Source: a virus. From it: a DNA stretch of 55,273 nucleotides. Position 1 is the stretch's first letter. Every line of letters begins with the position of its first letter. Where the stretch lies: the IMG/VR virus record IMGVR_UViG_3300047157_000034, positions 1 through 55,273 of that record. The stretch is one strand, 5' to 3'. Shown in pieces: positions 4,541 to 21,253 of the stretch. The notes under the pieces are model-generated. The model was not told the origin of the DNA and made no database searches. It worked only from the letters and a program-made list of their open reading frames with translations. Position numbers and translations under genes: made by a program.

Positions 4541-4591
4541 GTTGGCTACGCCAACCACCTCAGCCCCCGATCCCAGTTCGGGGGTTTTTTT
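4541..4591 (+). terminator. Rho-independent terminator ending the late transcript
   Basis: The stem CCCCCGA (4564-4570) pairs with TCGGGGG (4578-4584) around a 7-base loop and is followed directly by seven T residues (4585-4591). A second, smaller hairpin (GTTGGC 4541-4546 / GCCAAC 4550-4555) precedes it. The element lies between the last plus-strand gene and the converging last minus-strand gene, whose stop codon it touches. The T-run is only on the plus side, so it mainly stops late transcription. Confidence 0.85.
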
Positions 4592-5927
4592 ATGACTGAG
4601 AGACGTTTGCCGTTGTGTCGGCTTTCTCTGGAGCAGTAGCTAGCCCTACACCCACACCGTCCATCAGTTTATGGTACTTTAACTCATAACAGCGAGACAT
4701 ACCGCTCGGTATAGTAGAACCTTGACCGAGATACATTCTCTTATTTGGTTCTCCAGTTGGTTGCATTACAAGATAACCTGAATTATCTAGTTCGTCGCGT
4801 AGTGCTTTTGGCGCAACACTATTCTCCTTGCACCAGTCAGCGAGAGCTTTAACTGAAATAAACGCTTTGCGGTCTTCCGTACACAACCGTCCTGCAGGCG
4901 GAGCACGTAACGGCATCGACGTATCTTCTTTGTTTGTGTTCGCAGATCCTAGCCGCTTGGTAACGATGAGTCGTCCGTGTAATGTAGCAATGAATGTAGC
5001 AAGGTGTTCACGTATATCTGTGTTAACTTCACGCCTGCTTTCACGCATCTGTACTACTTGAGCAGATGCCCACTTCTTCATTGCGTTTACATCAAACGAA
5101 ACTAGCCCAATCTTTTCTGCAATCTTACCCGCAACTAACGCTGTGACAATTGTATCACGATAGAAACGTTCCTTGTTATCGTCTTCTGATTGTGGATTAA
5201 ACTTACTTCTTGCGGCTACTATCTGCCGTCGTACCCAATCTTTGTTTTTTATAATAAAACGTATGAAAGGAAGACATGCTTCTCCGTAAACATTATCCAT
5301 GTGGTGTTCGACAAAAGACTGAGTAATATCAGGAAACGTATCTTTTACAAAACCTTCAGACAACGGTACTTCAAAGAAGCGTAACTGTGTTGCTTCAACC
5401 TTATATCCAGCAGGTAGTTTTGCGATGCTTTCTAAAATGCTATCGTTGGAAGTAATAAACGAGTTCTTAAACCACTGACCGCCTACTGTAGCAAACCGCC
5501 CATTGGTAGATAATCTTTCTTTGTCTCGTCCGTTGGCGAGCGCGTATCCAGTCCTGGTTAGCTCCTCCGACGTTCTACCAGAAAACTCGTCAAGGAGTAG
5601 AGGGACAGCACCCATGATTGCGATTCGCTTAATGACTGCGTTGAGTGTAGAACCTTGTTCCCCTGTTTGGCGTTCCATATATTCTGGCTTACCATAAAAA
5701 CCGCAAGCAATCTTAGCGGCGGTAGATTTACCTGTACCCCCATGACCTGTAAAGGCGAGAGGTAATCCATGCCAGTTCGACGATCCCATGAGTTCTACAA
5801 GAACCGATCCCATTGAATGACAGAGCGCAAACTGAAAAGGTTCAGCACCTTTCCTATTATACAAAGTATCAATGTTTGCTATCCACTCTTCTAGTCGTAC
5901 CTTTCCTACCAAAATCAACTGCAACAT
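4590..5927 (-). CDS. Replicative helicase domain of primase-helicase (C-terminal fragment)
   Basis: A P-loop ATPase with Walker A GHGGTGKST at residues about 61-69 and Walker B LLLDEF at about 110-115, followed by GRTSEEL and a sensor-like SFITSND. The order and spacing resemble the DUF927/D5-like superfamily 3 helicases that phages fuse to AEP primases. The ORF has no credible start: it overlaps the upstream fragment by 59 bases in another frame. Removing one base from the AAAA run at 5911-5914 (TTTT on the coding strand) joins TDVAVD to LVGKVRLEEWIANID. The C-terminus has a winged-helix-like region (VKALADWCKENSVAPKALRD). It should unwind DNA at the phage replication fork. Confidence 0.75.
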   Translation of the reverse strand: MLQLILVGKVRLEEWIANIDTLYNRKGAEPFQFALCHSMGSVLVELMGSSNWHGLPLAFTGHGGTGKSTAAKIACGFYGKPEYMERQTGEQGSTLNAVIKRIAIMGAVPLLLDEFSGRTSEELTRTGYALANGRDKERLSTNGRFATVGGQWFKNSFITSNDSILESIAKLPAGYKVEATQLRFFEVPLSEGFVKDTFPDITQSFVEHHMDNVYGEACLPFIRFIIKNKDWVRRQIVAARSKFNPQSEDDNKERFYRDTIVTALVAGKIAEKIGLVSFDVNAMKKWASAQVVQMRESRREVNTDIREHLATFIATLHGRLIVTKRLGSANTNKEDTSMPLRAPPAGRLCTEDRKAFISVKALADWCKENSVAPKALRDELDNSGYLVMQPTGEPNKRMYLGQGSTIPSGMSRCYELKYHKLMDGVGVGLATAPEKADTTANVSQS

Positions 5928-6834
5928 CTGTTGGTACGTTAGGGTCGCATAAAACTTCGTGAGAACCTTTTTCTGTAATCATTTTTGTGCCCATCACAAA
6001 GCCTTTGCGGTCTTCTGTCCACCCGAACTGCCCATAGGTTTTTGTTTCAACACGGTATTTCTGTAATGTTTCAATGAGAGTTTCAGCAAATTCTGCCATA
6101 TCATTCCTCGCGTTTCTTGTTCTCGTTAAAAATACTTCATGGGAAGCTAACGTTTCTGACATTTGCGAAGGAGACGCTAACTCTGAGGTTGGCATAAAAA
6201 ACTCACGCCATTGTCCATTTTTTTCTTTAGCTTTCCAATGTATAACCCACGTACCTTCGCTATCTCTAATACGGTTAATCGGGTACACAAAACTCTTACA
6301 AAACGGTTTCCATGATACAGCTCCATCGTCGTCAGTATAGGCCCGACTCAGAGCAACTCCGTTCCATCTAAAATTCTTATCCCACCAAGTCCTTGTTATC
6401 CAAGGTATTGTTTGTCCTTCAACTATCACCGCGTTACTAGCTTGTTGACCGTCACCGTCGTCGTCGCTCCCGGCTGCAGCTGTTTCCTGAACGACGGGAG
6501 GTTTTATGTCTGGAGGGCAGAAACCTTTGTCTCTTGCGCCATCAATCATCTTCTGAACTTCATCATGTGTGTCTTCAGCAGAGTACCCTTCTAGGGTTAA
6601 CTCTCTAGCTAATCTGTGAATTTCAGCATCTGTGTTGCCTTTAGTTACCCATGAGGCAACTAATTTAAGCATGTTGTTATGCCATTCTTCGCCGTTTAAT
6701 ACAGCTTCACGCGCCTCAGTGCGATCAAGTTTTTCTCCGTACTCAACAAAATCTCCAAAACCACCTTTAGTAGTAGCTGCGTTGCACATCGTTATTTGCA
6801 ATGAACTCAAGCATTGTTGTACGCAAGTGTTCAA
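5869..6834 (-). CDS. Middle fragment of primase-helicase
   Basis: This is the middle third of the broken primase-helicase. The nominal start (TTG at 6834) is an artefact of the upstream frame break; real coding begins about base 6790 with KGGFGDFVEYGEKLDRTEA. The segment includes EEWHNNMLKLVASWVTKGNT and ARELTLEGYSAEDTHDEVQ, a linker/primase C-terminal-like helical domain. An acidic Gly/Asp-rich hinge (SDDDGDG) and a beta-rich region with FGWTEDRKGFVMG follow; this last region is typical of the part preceding the Walker A of DUF927-type helicases. It ends at TGA 5869 within the next fragment's overlap. Confidence 0.65.
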   Translation of the reverse strand: MNTCVQQCLSSLQITMCNAATTKGGFGDFVEYGEKLDRTEAREAVLNGEEWHNNMLKLVASWVTKGNTDAEIHRLARELTLEGYSAEDTHDEVQKMIDGARDKGFCPPDIKPPVVQETAAAGSDDDGDGQQASNAVIVEGQTIPWITRTWWDKNFRWNGVALSRAYTDDDGAVSWKPFCKSFVYPINRIRDSEGTWVIHWKAKEKNGQWREFFMPTSELASPSQMSETLASHEVFLTRTRNARNDMAEFAETLIETLQKYRVETKTYGQFGWTEDRKGFVMGTKMITEKGSHEVLCDPNVPTDVAVDFGRKGTTRRVDSKH

Positions 6835-7444
6835 CAGAATAACGTTTTCCTTGCTTAAGAAGCTTTACAGGTAACGGCCTTCCATACTTTTTATTGTGCG
6901 TACCTACAGGTCTGAGCACACGTGCAGAATCTAAATCAACAGCCTTATCAATTTTCATACTAAGAAAGGTTGTCACGTCTCGCTTCAACGTTGAAAGTTC
7001 TAGCCAAGTTGCTTTGTCTACTTCCTCGTCAATATGAAAATACGTGTGGTAGCCACCTCCGCTATCAACAACCGTTGGCGTCAGCCGTAGCGCCTGGGCC
7101 AGCTTTGCAACGTCGGCAATTGCTTCTTGTTTACTGTTGTATTTTTTATCTTCGTCAGGGTGTACGTCGTAATCATCGTACAGCGCTTTACAGCACGCGA
7201 CGTTATCTTGTGTACGTATTCTAAACTTATCTTTGTCGTCTTTGTACCAGTCATTAAACGAGTTAATAGCAACGTAAACTTCATTAGTTTGATCTAACTT
7301 TATAGCTTCAGCCGCCGCTTCTGCTACGGTTGTAAACTTTCTATTTTTCCACCAACTTCTGCCATGTTCGTTTGTTTCTGGGACACCTAGCACAATGTGC
7401 CCATTCGACGGCAGTAGCCACTCGAAGAACTCTAGGGTCTCCAT
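6767..7444 (-). CDS. AEP-type primase domain (N-terminal fragment of primase-helicase)
   Basis: This is the true start of the primase-helicase: ATG at 7444 preceded by GGAGGTG. The product has the archaeo-eukaryotic primase signature: LYDDYDVHP with the D-x-D pair (residues about 89-95), DSGGGYHTYFHID with the sxH motif, and AVDLDSARVLRPVGTHN with the third acidic/hD motif. These residues bind metals and the incoming nucleotide in PrimPol/RepB-like enzymes. The frame ends at TAA 6767 because of one surplus base somewhere in about 6790-6815. With the three fragments rejoined the enzyme would be about 920-930 residues. It primes, and may unwind, phage DNA. Confidence 0.75.
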   Translation of the reverse strand: METLEFFEWLLPSNGHIVLGVPETNEHGRSWWKNRKFTTVAEAAAEAIKLDQTNEVYVAINSFNDWYKDDKDKFRIRTQDNVACCKALYDDYDVHPDEDKKYNSKQEAIADVAKLAQALRLTPTVVDSGGGYHTYFHIDEEVDKATWLELSTLKRDVTTFLSMKIDKAVDLDSARVLRPVGTHNKKYGRPLPVKLLKQGKRYSVEHLRTTMLEFIANNDVQRSYY

Positions 7445-15135: not shown

Positions 15136-15444
15136 TTATTTATCTCCTGTTACTAAGTGTTTTAATTTTTGCATCTCTGGGTTGTTACGCATTTTACGCA
15201 TACCTCTGGCTTCAATTTGACGGACACGTTCTTTAGAAATGCCAAACAATTTTCCAATAGCACTAAGTGTCCAACCTTCCTCGTTCGGCATATCAATACC
15301 AAAACGCATCTTAACAATAATAAGTTCTCGCTCGGTTACATTACCTGATTGATAACTATCTTTACTTAGTCTTCCTGTTTCTAACTCTTTTAAAGTTTCG
15401 TCAGAAAAGACTTCGTATTGTTTATACAGATCGCCGTAAACCAT
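15136..15444 (-). CDS. Sigma-70 region 4-like protein
   Basis: A 102-residue protein whose second half is a clear sigma region 4: ELIIVKMRFGIDM, then GWTLSAIGKLFGISKERVRQ and IEARGMRKMRNN, the helix-turn-helix that contacts the -35 element and binds the RNA-polymerase flap. There is no region 2 for -10 recognition or core binding. The protein therefore cannot be a full sigma factor. It may be an activator or appropriator that swaps the host sigma contact at phage promoters, as small phage sigma-4 mimics do. This is inference. Confidence 0.8.
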   Translation of the reverse strand: MVYGDLYKQYEVFSDETLKELETGRLSKDSYQSGNVTERELIIVKMRFGIDMPNEEGWTLSAIGKLFGISKERVRQIEARGMRKMRNNPEMQKLKHLVTGDK

Positions 15445-16175: not shown

Positions 16176-17351
16176 TTACGCATCGACATCAAACTCTATT
16201 ACTTGACCCCAATCAAAGTCGGGGCTATGAGTCGTGAGCCATACAGTGTCGTGCTTGGATGTGAAGTCGTTCTGATTGCCGTAACCATCAGTAAAATAGA
16301 CAACGACTTCGGGGTCTAAATCATGTTCATCAATATAATCGAAAACAGGATCAAACGCAGTACCACCTCCTCCATGCGGAGTTAGTTTGATTGGAAACTC
16401 TTCGGGTTCGTAAGTATCTACGTGTGCAACATCTGCGTCGCAATATATAACTGTCACAGACTTTGGATTGCACTGCTCGATTATCCTATTAACGTGTCCA
16501 CCAAATACATTCAGTTCTTCTTGTCTAATAGAACCTGATGTATCTATACCAAACACCACGTTACCCATGCGTGGGACGTAGTCATCTCCAGGGAGGTAAA
16601 GACCACGACCGATAAACCTACGATTAGGTCTTTTCCATGACCTACCATCTTTTAGCTTACTATTGAAGTATCGCTCTAGTTTATCGTACCAAGGTGTTTT
16701 TACGTTAACCAACTCGTCTATCATACGCTCGAGAGATGCAGGCAACTTACCCTTCTGCTTGGCTAGAGTCGCGGATTGTATAGCTTCGACCTTGGCTTTG
16801 GCTTCTATCTCTTTTACCTTACTCTCATCAAGTGGCTTACCCTGAGCATCTACAGGATCACCTATGTCTAAGCCAATACCACCGCCTGCTCCACCACCAG
16901 TATCTTCTGGTGGATCGTTGTACAGTTCTTCGGTGGCCTTATCTCTTGCACCATCAAAGTGACAACCACCTTCTATGAACTTACCGACTTTGGCGTCTAT
17001 AAGAGTATCGTTGATAACTAAGTCAGCGGATATGTTCCACATCTCAGGATCACGTGCGCCACGTCTTGTTGAATGGCATAGCATAAAGTGCATAGCTTCG
17101 TGTGCTAATAGAAAAATAGTATTCTGCAAGGGGTCTGGTAGGTGCGCTATGAAATGTGGGTTAAGCCGCATCTGCCCTACAGCGTCCATCGACGCAGTTT
17201 GTGTGTCGTAATCATATATAATAGTACGCTTACTCACAGCCATACCAAAGAAGGGGTGATGCAATATCAACCTCGCTTTGGCTTTAGTAACTAAGTCTTC
17301 CACCTTCTTTTGTTCTGGTGGTGACAATGGTTCTGGTATTTGGTCAAACAT
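16176..17351 (-). CDS. VWA/metallopeptidase-like protein (DUF2201 type)
   Basis: The ATG at 17351 (MFDQIPEPLSPP) is chosen over one eight codons upstream because GAGAGG precedes it and it overlaps the small upstream gene as TAATG. The 391-residue product has an N-terminal zincin-like domain with HEAMHFMLCH (HExxH at 84-88). A Gly/Asp linker follows (GGGAGGGIG), then a VWA-like domain with the MIDAS motif DTSGS (about residue 270), a Thr in GGGGTAFDP and YFTDG near the end. DUF2201 proteins pair with MoxR ATPases in bacteria. With its neighbour the protein may form a chaperone-like remodelling complex acting on an unknown target. Confidence 0.85.
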   Translation of the reverse strand: MFDQIPEPLSPPEQKKVEDLVTKAKARLILHHPFFGMAVSKRTIIYDYDTQTASMDAVGQMRLNPHFIAHLPDPLQNTIFLLAHEAMHFMLCHSTRRGARDPEMWNISADLVINDTLIDAKVGKFIEGGCHFDGARDKATEELYNDPPEDTGGGAGGGIGLDIGDPVDAQGKPLDESKVKEIEAKAKVEAIQSATLAKQKGKLPASLERMIDELVNVKTPWYDKLERYFNSKLKDGRSWKRPNRRFIGRGLYLPGDDYVPRMGNVVFGIDTSGSIRQEELNVFGGHVNRIIEQCNPKSVTVIYCDADVAHVDTYEPEEFPIKLTPHGGGGTAFDPVFDYIDEHDLDPEVVVYFTDGYGNQNDFTSKHDTVWLTTHSPDFDWGQVIEFDVDA

Positions 17352-17494
17352 TATAACCTCTCTTCTTTCTGCCATTTTTCATGTATAGCTTCTGCCATAC
17401 ATCTGGCGGTTAAACCTTCACGTTTTTCTATTTCGTCAAACGCTTGGTCGTTTGTCATGTCTTCGAGAAGACTACTCAACAACTCTTCTATCAT
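17351..17494 (-). CDS. Small linker gene in MoxR/VWA operon (47 aa)
   Basis: A 47-residue acidic/helical peptide (MIEELLSSLLEDMTNDQAFD, then EIEKREGLTARCMAEAIHEK) encoded on the minus strand. Its ATG overlaps the previous stop as ATGA, and its TAA overlaps the next ATG, so it is tightly coupled on both sides. The tight packing is strong evidence that it is a real gene. Function unknown; possibly an adaptor of the MoxR/VWA complex. Confidence 0.65.
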   Translation of the reverse strand: MIEELLSSLLEDMTNDQAFDEIEKREGLTARCMAEAIHEKWQKEERL

Positions 17495-18543
17495 AACACC
17501 AAGCCTTTCATTTTACCCATTAGGCTCTCAATGTCAGTCTTAGCTTGCGATCTAGCATTAGGGCTATGTCGTATGATCTCTTTACTTCCTGCTAGCCCTG
17601 AAGCGAGGGTGTTTAACTCAGTAATCTGTTTTCTAATTACTGGGTCGTCACTGAGACAGACTCGATTCATACGATCTGCAACCTCTACCATATTGTCGAT
17701 CAAGCTATCTCTAAACACAGAGCCATCTTCGCCTATAGGTATAGATAGTTTTTTAACGGCTTCGCCTAATGGTTTAACCATCTGCTCTACTACATGAGTA
17801 GCCGCCGTCGTCTGCACATCGTCCAGCTGGCGCTGTAACGACGACTTCTCTGCATCAGACATTCCGAAACGTGGGTCAAAGTCATCTACTTTAGGTATCG
17901 GACTATACTGCACGTCGATTGAGAAACGAGACCGCAAATCATCTACATCAGGATAGTCATTTATATTGGCAAGATCAGGATTACCTTTTGCATTACCTAT
18001 CTGCTGAATACGTGCAAAATCAGTCTGCACAACTTGATCCCAATTATCGCACAAAGTATCAATTGATGCATAAGCGTCGTCGACGAGGCCGCGCAGCCCC
18101 GATGTAAAATCGCTCCACGTCATCATGTTTAACATGCGTTGGCCTACTGCCCAAGGGACTGTGTTGTCGTTGACGTAAGTATAGACCGCCGTAAACTTAG
18201 CAACTGTTCGCTTGACAAGATTGTCTCGCCCATCAAACAGATGTTTATTAACACGGCCTGCACCATACTCTTCTGTTGCCGAAGCATCAGAGATGTAAGG
18301 GCGATACATACCACGCTTAAGCGTAACAAGGATTGCTTTCTCGTTGAGCGGTTTAACCTCTATCAACTGGCGAACAGGTTGTTCAGTTGGTAGTTTTTGG
18401 TTTGGTACGGGGCAGGGCTCATCAGCGACTACGTCGTCGTTTTCCGTACCAATCCCCACGTTGCCACCACTGTCGATGCTAGCTGATGAGTCGTCACTAT
18501 GCTTGAGCGCATCAGCTAAGGCTTGTTGTAATAACATATTCAT
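17491..18543 (-). CDS. DUF3150-like partner of MoxR/VWA module
   Basis: A 350-residue protein without enzymatic motifs. After a polar N-terminus it has VTLKRGMYRPYISDAS, FTAVYTYVNDNTVPWAVGQR and a helical C-terminus. The G-R-V-N-K...F...V...Y..V spacing is reminiscent of DUF3150, a family encoded next to MoxR ATPases and VWA proteins. I assign it mainly from context. It begins 11 bases after the MoxR gene and overlaps the small 47-aa gene, so it is translated with them. Confidence 0.5.
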   Translation of the reverse strand: MNMLLQQALADALKHSDDSSASIDSGGNVGIGTENDDVVADEPCPVPNQKLPTEQPVRQLIEVKPLNEKAILVTLKRGMYRPYISDASATEEYGAGRVNKHLFDGRDNLVKRTVAKFTAVYTYVNDNTVPWAVGQRMLNMMTWSDFTSGLRGLVDDAYASIDTLCDNWDQVVQTDFARIQQIGNAKGNPDLANINDYPDVDDLRSRFSIDVQYSPIPKVDDFDPRFGMSDAEKSSLQRQLDDVQTTAATHVVEQMVKPLGEAVKKLSIPIGEDGSVFRDSLIDNMVEVADRMNRVCLSDDPVIRKQITELNTLASGLAGSKEIIRHSPNARSQAKTDIESLMGKMKGLVL

Positions 18544-18554
18544 TTACTTTCCTC

Positions 18555-19562
18555 CTATTTAAATATGTCTTGGTTCTTAACTGCATACTCAGTAAACGCT
18601 TTGGTTGTCTGAATTGCAGGGTTCATTTTGAGTGCGTCAGTTAGATACACAACTGCAAACTCTTTGGGCATACGTGTCACGTACTTCATATCAACCTCAA
18701 AGCTATCTACTGTTGATGTCACAGACAAAGACGTTGCTACTGCGTAACGTACCGCAGGCTCTTTGGGTGTCTCCGTCGTCTCTGGATGCATTCTAATGAC
18801 GTCGATGTTAGGCATTTTTGACATCATATCTTTGGCCGCTACCCATTCAGCCGCCGCCCCTTCACCAACTTTACCCTCACATGCCATAAGATAAAGATCA
18901 GATGGTAGATCAGATGGTACTTCAGTGAATAGCTTAGTCCATGATCTCTGCGTAGGATTACTACGCCTACTAGGATCATAGTCATTCAGAAGATTAGGGC
19001 GTAGTCGCAAGAACGCTATGCCAAGTGGATCAACGTCATTCTCTAACGCCCAAGCACACCAGTCGTCGAGAGATGTCTCAACATCAAAGTGATACATGCG
19101 GTCGTTAAGGTGTCCTAACAACGGCTTCGCCCCCGCTCTGTCTTCGGCGCGGTTGCCAGTAGCGATGATGCACACATCTTTATCTAACTTAAAACATGGT
19201 GTTTCACGCTCTAACATAAAGCCTGCCGCCCATGTCTGGTGATGCAACGACGATTGATGCAATTCTTCCAAGACAATTAACCCACCGCCAGTGCCTTCGC
19301 GAAAATCGTAAAACATTTTAGATGGATTAAAGATTGTCATGCCGTCGTCGGTGACACTAGGTACACCAGTGAAGTCAACGACATCATGGTTGTTGATATG
19401 CACAACTAAGATGCGATCATCAGAGAACCCTAGTGCTTTACCTATTTGAACACTTACGTCGCTCTTGCCTTCCCCAGGTTTACCGACGATGTCGACAACA
19501 ACCTTGGGTGATTTTTGGTACATAGCTACCGCAGTAGCTTTGATTTGGGATATAGAACCCAT
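18555..19562 (-). CDS. MoxR-like AAA+ ATPase
   Basis: A 335-residue AAA+ protein: Walker A GKPGEGKSD (about residue 27), a Walker B-like GLIVLEEL (about 95), sensor 1 IIATGNR (about 132), and GHLNDRMYHFDVE, the MoxR arginine-finger block. The start at 19562 is chosen because GGAGGT lies 5 bases ahead; the upstream in-frame ATG (19574) is itself part of that ribosome-binding site. It heads an operon with a DUF3150-like protein, a 47-aa peptide and a VWA/metallopeptidase protein. It should power remodelling of a protein complex; it resembles CobS and other MoxR partners of VWA proteins. Confidence 0.9.
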   Translation of the reverse strand: MGSISQIKATAVAMYQKSPKVVVDIVGKPGEGKSDVSVQIGKALGFSDDRILVVHINNHDVVDFTGVPSVTDDGMTIFNPSKMFYDFREGTGGGLIVLEELHQSSLHHQTWAAGFMLERETPCFKLDKDVCIIATGNRAEDRAGAKPLLGHLNDRMYHFDVETSLDDWCAWALENDVDPLGIAFLRLRPNLLNDYDPSRRSNPTQRSWTKLFTEVPSDLPSDLYLMACEGKVGEGAAAEWVAAKDMMSKMPNIDVIRMHPETTETPKEPAVRYAVATSLSVTSTVDSFEVDMKYVTRMPKEFAVVYLTDALKMNPAIQTTKAFTEYAVKNQDIFK

Positions 19563-19616
19563 ATTTACCTCCATTTAGTTTGAGTGTGTATAAACGTGTT
19601 TAAATAATGTTACATG

Positions 19617-20403: not shown

Positions 20404-20477
20404 TGGCAGAGGTTGTAGGAATTGAACCCACATCTACAAGGTTGGAACTTGTCGTGTTACCATTACACTAAACCTCT
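20404..20477 (-). tRNA. tRNA-Trp (anticodon CCA)
   Basis: A full cloverleaf on the minus strand: acceptor AGAGGTT/AACCTCT (7 perfect pairs), D arm GTGT/ACAC, anticodon arm ACAAG/CTTGT with loop TTCCAAC (anticodon CCA at the expected place), T arm GTGGG/CCTAC with loop TTCAATT, discriminator G and an encoded CCA tail. A1-U72 and G73 are the bacterial tRNA-Trp identity elements. It reads UGG codons, probably to support late translation. Confidence 0.93.
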
Positions 20478-20484
20478 ATGTGTG

Positions 20485-20751
20485 TGACGTTTGTTACTTA
20501 TGACGTTGCATTATGACGTTACGATAGTTGTAAGCCATTGAATACAAAGCGTTATGACGTTATGACGGACTAAAAGAGTAACAAGTAGAATTGTTGAACG
20601 TGTGGCAAAAATTGTACTACTGGCACACATATTTAACATTTTGGTATTCTTCTATATTAACGTCATAACGTCATAACGTCATAAAGGTCATACTAAATGG
20701 CTGTTTTTATTGAACATTTCATTATGACGTTTCATATGACGTTATGACGTT
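20485..20751. repeat. ATGACGTT / AACGTCAT 8-bp repeat array (candidate iterons)
   Basis: The octamer ATGACGTT occurs at 20500, 20513, 20554, 20724, 20736 and 20744, with near copies at 20484 and 20562. Its complement AACGTCAT occurs three times in perfect tandem at 20659, 20667 and 20675, with a degenerate fourth at 20684. Left and right clusters therefore read in one direction and the central block in the other, and the region between (20569-20658) is AT-rich and gene-free. The arrangement resembles iterons of a replication origin or a regulator-binding array. It sits between the first early gene and the tRNA, in a 281-bp stretch without ORFs. Confidence 0.75.
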
Positions 20752-20758
20752 TGTATGA

Positions 20759-21253
20759 TTAAGCAACTTCTCTTAGTTCTACAGTGTTAGAACCTTCGCG
20801 ATACTCGCTTAGTGCTCTGATCATAGCTTCTATTTGATCTGGGTGCTTCTTGAACTGTGTAGCCGCCCAAACTTTAACATCGAAAGGCTTCTCTTCTACT
20901 TCAGCCTTAGGTGGATCTATGTGCCACTGTTGGACTTCAGTAAAAAGATGCAAACAGAATGCTTGAACATCGTCAAACTCTGTGACTCTCTCGTTCTTCT
21001 GTTTTTTGTTAAGGGTGTACTGGCTCTTCTCTTTGTTCCAAGTCACTAACCCGTTGTCTTTTATCCAACGTTTGATGCGTTGTTGATTTATGCCGTTAGT
21101 CGCATTTATTAATCTTGTGAAGTACGTGGCATCACCATGTTCAAATGCATACCCTGCCGCGTTGCAAAGTACTTCGTGAACATTCTTTCTGATAGCTTCC
21201 GACGACTTTCTGATGCCACCAATTTTAACTCCCATTTGCTTAGATGTAAGCAT
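20759..21253 (-). CDS. Early protein, possibly DNA-binding
   Basis: A 164-residue protein, the first gene of the minus-strand arm, with GGAGG and then ATG at 21253. The N-terminus (SSEAIRKNVHEVLCNAAGYA) is followed by INQQRIKRWIKDNGLVTWNK, which looks like a winged helix, and an acidic C-terminal half with DVKVWAATQFKKHPDQIEAM. The repeat array starts 8 bases past its stop codon. A role as initiator or regulator acting on those repeats is an attractive guess from location only. I recognise the general type as a conserved phage early protein. Confidence 0.65.
   Translation of the reverse strand: MLTSKQMGVKIGGIRKSSEAIRKNVHEVLCNAAGYAFEHGDATYFTRLINATNGINQQRIKRWIKDNGLVTWNKEKSQYTLNKKQKNERVTEFDDVQAFCLHLFTEVQQWHIDPPKAEVEEKPFDVKVWAATQFKKHPDQIEAMIRALSEYREGSNTVELREVA

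Follow-up and report, generated by a model that had tools for sequence, protein, structure and literature searches.

An octamer array between early phage genes as a probable IHF-assisted iteron replication origin

Introduction

Iteron origins, such as lambda ori with its iterons for the O protein and those of plasmids, combine repeats with an AT-rich region, and their cognate specificity differs between relatives. Repeated protein sites are also combined with IHF bends in lambda attP and cosB, and repeated operators with IHF are a common promoter design. SaPI Rep and SCCmec Cch2 read their origin iterons through a C-terminal domain (PMC7581432), and in primase-helicase fusions a C-terminal winged helix has been predicted to serve origin recognition (PMC5862659). 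In the Vibrio satellite PLE, the iterons of ori and the DNA-binding domain of the initiator RepA covary as a module between related elements (PMC8263062).

We analyzed an array of octamers in the virus record IMGVR_UViG_3300047157_000034, whose whole stretch of 55,273 nucleotides is called the window below. An earlier note on this DNA had proposed the array as a candidate replication origin. A literature search found no description of such arrays, and a DNA search of a phage collection with the region returned tRNA matches only. The array is very probably where the copying of the DNA of this marine phage starts.

Results

Genome context

The early genes of the window run leftward from ~21.2 kb and the structural genes rightward from ~21.8 kb. 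The record has no terminal repeat, and an open frame of 496 codons spans the join of its ends, positions 1 and 55273, so that the record looks circular and is probably a complete circular assembly. The early operon includes a small protein (15136-15444) that consists of a sigma-70 region 4 domain alone (Pfam, E 3e-15) and is a possible phage transcription regulator. A conserved early block at 16176-19574 encodes a VWA protein, a 350-aa protein and a MoxR-like AAA ATPase, and resembles CobS/CobT-annotated genes of Zobellviridae phages.

The array in the window

The array occupies the entire gap from tRNA-Trp (20404-20477, minus strand) to the gene of a 164-aa early protein (20759-21253, minus strand), which agrees with the location between an early gene and the tRNA given before. 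Nine exact copies of the octamer ATGACGTT/AACGTCAT lie within 252 bp (20500-20751). Of the near copies claimed in addition, which were put at three or more, three were also recovered, and the central triple is indeed head-to-tail, on the minus strand, with the flanking copies on the plus strand. The parts of the array are as follows.

20484-20520, plus strand: left outer octamers, with the near copy GTGACGTT at 20484-20491 and ATGACGTT at 20500-20507 and 20513-20520; the steps of 16 and 13 are kept in relatives.
20531-20543, minus strand: IHF-like site ATTCAATGGCTTA, one mismatch to WATCAANNNNTTR, within a conserved 41-bp step; many relatives have the exact consensus here.
20554-20569, plus strand: left inner octamer pair, 8 bp apart, with ATGACGTT at 20554-20561 and the degenerate or partial copy ATGACGGA at 20562-20569.
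20570-20658, no strand: gap from the inner pair to the triple, whose right end (~20626-20660) has the lowest duplex stability in the array and is a candidate unwinding element.
20659-20682, minus strand: central triple of head-to-tail octamers with period 8 (starts 20659, 20667 and 20675), reading AACGTCAT three times on the plus strand; a triple is present in most relatives.
20684-20691, minus strand: near copy ATGACCTT.
20694-20706, minus strand: right IHF-like site AAACAGCCATTTA, degenerate with two mismatches; the exact consensus stands at the equivalent place in relatives including L064, L119 and L121.
20724-20751, plus strand: right outer octamers, exact copies (starts 20724, 20736 and 20744).

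The octamer is rare elsewhere. Only 2 of the 11 copies in the whole window fall outside the array, and 100 dinucleotide shuffles of the window gave a mean of 1.73 copies and a maximum of 7; the word thus passed the count against a shuffled control that the earlier note had proposed. No second cluster of short repeats of this kind was found in the other 300-base stretches of the window. As at iteron origins, multiple short repeats occupy a non-coding stretch. The classical plasmid iteron origin of Rep_3 type was set aside on repeat length, as its iterons measure about 17-22 bp and the repeat here 8 bp. A search of the region with Rfam for structured RNA gave the tRNA and below-threshold noise only. 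The cumulative GC skew, suggested as a further check, reaches its minimum 1.1 kb rightward of the array, at ~21.8 kb. This minimum coincides with the switch in gene direction, however, and is therefore not independent evidence for an origin.

A fixed layout with a changing word

Relatives were fetched from IMG/VR by TerL, the 164-aa protein, the VWA protein, the AAA ATPase and the primase-helicase. An array stands at the same place in more than 50 related records, nearly all of those that cover this place, as would be expected from the earlier origin proposal, though with other octamers. The steps between sites (16/17, 13, 41, 8, ~100, 8 and 8) are kept almost to the base. Within a single genome nearly all copies share one word, i.e. 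they have changed together, and at least 15 different words occur across the relatives, with octamers grouped by eye and some arrays mixed. Near relatives carry TTATGACG, TTATTACG, TTATGACA, TTATTACA, TTAAGACA, ACAAGACA and TTTAGACA; distant relatives carry TTGGATAA, AATTATCC, CTATTATCC, AGAGATAA, GAATATTC, GAAAATTC, TATTGTTC, GGAACAA, GGAACCA, TGGTACA and ACTATCT. Comparable arrays are present in the cultured Pseudomonas phage Rollin (word TATGCAA, triple at a 9-bp step) and in the cultured phage KPP25 (word TCGTAACA). Of 9 TATGCAA copies in the first 49 kb of Rollin, 8 lie in the array at 1-760 of its record, which has one exact IHF site. The primase-helicase of KPP25 is of the DUF5906 helicase family instead, and a search for IHF sites gave no exact match, both of which count against the reading proposed below.

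A strict detector was applied upstream of the ATPase, requiring at least five copies of one 7-mer in 400 bases, counted on both strands, with one same-strand pair 8 bases apart. It reported an array in 28 of 41 relatives' records, compared with 0 of 820 first-order randomized sequences and 0 of 39 downstream in-operon control stretches. Several of the 13 misses show visible but degenerate arrays (e.g. L107/L130, L131 and L133). Most relatives have no tRNA at the border of the array, and the tRNA is therefore incidental to it. In many relatives the equivalent of 20570-20658 is bounded by GAGAGA and CTCTCT tracts that could pair, a feature that is not clear in the window.

IHF sites and an easily melted stretch

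The 46 dereplicated arrays together contain 24 exact matches to the IHF consensus WATCAANNNNTTR, where shuffles give 1.9 ± 1.4. The majority of the 24 stand at two fixed positions, one within the 41-base step and the other to the right of the triple. Both IHF-like sites of the window itself are imperfect. An intergenic stretch of Rhizobium phage RHph_TM27A (19340-20140) contains two exact IHF-consensus sites.

In 23 relatives duplex stability is lowest immediately next to the triple, and their mean AT content directly before it is 0.85. In the window the equivalent is 20631-20660, and the 30-mer at 20631 ranks ~27th of 11049 in stability, among the least stable. The array therefore has an AT-rich, easily melted stretch beside its repeats, as iteron origins do.

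A candidate initiator

The protein that we propose as the initiator is encoded far to the left of the array.

4590-7444, minus strand: primase-helicase, proposed initiator, in three overlapping frames.
6767-7444, minus strand: N-terminal primase.
5869-6834, minus strand: middle part.
4590-5927, minus strand: DUF927 helicase and C-terminal winged-helix-like domain.

In relatives, which are up to 90% identical, the primase-helicase is one frame of about 930-1000 aa, and, apart from some truncated records, every long relative checked has it. The split in the window may come from sequencing or assembly indels or may be a real disruption. A domain search identified the helicase part as DUF927. Profile comparison matched the protein to Cch (PDB 5dgk, E 7e-24) and SaPI Rep (PDB 8tch, E 1e-13), and the best fold matches of its model were Cch and SaPIbov1 Rep (E 2e-12 to 1e-11). 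These two are its only clear homologues of known structure. The phage thus encodes a homologue of initiator helicases by both sequence and fold. A predicted winged-helix-like domain closes the protein, modeled with moderate confidence (mean pLDDT 80); the C-terminal domain comprises about the last 110 residues. The gene is ~13 kb from the array, and the array lies upstream of it, not directly downstream of the initiator gene. The "putative integrase" of phage RHph_TM27A (L091, 42248-45331) is a homologue of this primase-helicase.

Covariation of the octamer and the early proteins was analyzed in 8 genomes with AAGACA- or TAGACA-type octamers, whose phylogeny splits them otherwise than octamer type does. 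Seven strict columns of the primase-helicase follow the octamer type against the phylogeny, whereas the other ten shared early proteins tested have 0-1 such columns each (Fisher p 0.0009 by length, 0.008 by informative columns). Of these seven, the C-terminal domain contains only 2; within this domain, residues 888 (K/R), 890 (Y/(T,V)), 891 (I/L) and 907 (F/(I,L)) separate the octamer types. The 8 genomes represent about two independent octamer changes, and recombination inside the primase-helicase gene could contribute to the pattern. Since the data set is small and partly hand-labelled, the covariation is support and not proof; it indicates, without proving, that the primase-helicase reads the octamer. 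A ribbon-helix-helix binder, to which the 8-bp period might point, was considered as another possible reader.

The neighboring 164-aa protein

The 164-aa protein (20759-21253, minus strand; phrog_1448) had been named earlier as a candidate binder of the array. It is unlikely to be the specificity factor, and we rejected it as the reader of the octamer. The slot beside the array holds either of two protein families, A (phrog_1448) and B, and the same octamer is found with either. A copy 67% identical to that of the window adjoins an array of TTAAGACA, whereas copies 53-55% identical adjoin the window's own octamer; an operator that tracks its regulator was thus not found. Some relatives carry the gene on the opposite side of the array. 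The predicted fold is winged-helix-like, and a comparison of the model with the PDB gave no significant match. Families A and B share a similar C-terminal tail (F-D-x3-W..HP-x-Q-L-E-A-M-I-A-A-L), which suggests modular exchange at the array border.

Discussion

We read the array as an IHF-assisted iteron replication origin whose octamers are read by a primase-helicase of the SaPIbov1 Rep/SCCmec Cch kind, with a probability of roughly 0.78. The conserved architecture, the IHF sites, the unstable AT-rich stretch and the covarying homologue of initiator helicases all lend weight to the origin first suspected in the earlier note. We infer the following course of events. The octamers would serve as iterons for the primase-helicase, a putative DUF927 self-loading initiator of that kind, which would bind them with its C-terminal winged-helix-like domain. 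Bends introduced by host IHF at one or two fixed sites would draw the outer, inner and central groups of iterons close to each other. Next, the AT-rich DNA adjoining the central triple would melt, and the helicase could load from two facing iteron groups, the inner pair and the triple.

A multi-operator region, in which a phage regulator on the octamers would control leftward early transcription with the help of IHF, is an unlikely alternative reading of these data. In many relatives the array does immediately precede the next leftward gene, and the predicted fold of the adjacent 164-aa protein would suit a regulator. That protein, however, does not track the octamer and its model lacks a significant PDB match, no other shared early protein covaries with the word, and a scan of the region for sigma-70 promoters gave no excess. 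Such a reading would also leave the link to the initiator helicase unexplained. The array might have a regulatory role nonetheless, alone or in addition to that of an origin. Concerted evolution, in which recombination between copies keeps the octamers alike with no cognate reader, is extremely improbable. Near copies exist and recombination genes are present, but in more than 50 records the spacing, the orientation and the places of the IHF sites hold to the base while only the octamer changes, and copies also occur singly on both strands, beyond one tandem block.

Two other functions of lambda-like sites were considered and rejected. A packaging site of the pac or cosB kind, read by the small terminase subunit TerS, would fit the start of the TerS gene (21812) ~1 kb from the array in the window, and the IHF sites, since lambda cosB likewise combines repeats with IHF. 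We consider it very improbable, as the seven genomes compared for both proteins show 1 octamer-type column in TerS and 18 in the primase-helicase, and the array is in the wrong place for a pac or cos site in Rollin, where 5-6 kb separate it from the gene preceding TerL, as well as in KPP25, where it is ~4 kb away. The tandem arm-like triples and IHF sites also resemble the layout of lambda attP with its arm-type sites, yet the window and 22 of 25 relatives, among them array-bearing records of 54-60 kb, yielded no Phage_integrase domain. With the cognate tyrosine integrase absent from the window and most relatives, an integration site is largely refuted and its probability is close to nil.

Returning to the iteron origin, we suggest tentatively that the whole phage family keeps one origin scaffold, made up of the fixed spacing, the IHF bends and the unstable stretch, and repeatedly re-codes all iterons together with the DNA-reading domain of the initiator. 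If this is true, origin identity would be a fast-switching recognition code, driven perhaps by parasites of the origin, by nucleases that cut it or by competing co-infecting phages. The analysis offers a predicted origin and initiator for a family of mostly uncultured marine phages and for cultured relatives such as Pseudomonas phage Rollin. With at least 15 octamers on one scaffold, the matched initiator-iteron pairs form a natural series for deciphering the recognition code of DUF927 initiator helicases, and why origins and initiators switch specificity becomes a directly testable question.

Among the known systems, lambda and plasmid iteron origins differ from the array in their longer iterons and in having no helicase-type initiator, and lambda ori lies inside gene O, unlike the array. 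The difference from lambda attP and cosB is that here there is no integrase and TerS does not covary. The SaPI origins with Rep (SaPIbov1 Rep, PDB 8tch) and SCCmec with Cch/Cch2 (PDB 5dgk) are alike in their short repeats and in the C-terminal domain of a self-loading initiator helicase as the reader, which is proposed here, and their DUF927 proteins are homologous to the phage primase-helicase in sequence and fold. They differ in that here the element is a phage genome and not an island, the primase is fused to the helicase, and 8-bp iterons stand in fixed facing groups with IHF sites; moreover, SaPI origins adjoin rep, whereas the proposed origin is 13 kb from the initiator gene. The Vibrio PLE has an unrelated RepA_N initiator and ~30-bp iterons, whereas the phage arrays keep their layout and change the word alone. 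This change of word on a fixed scaffold nevertheless parallels the swaps of initiator-origin modules among PLEs (PMC8263062).
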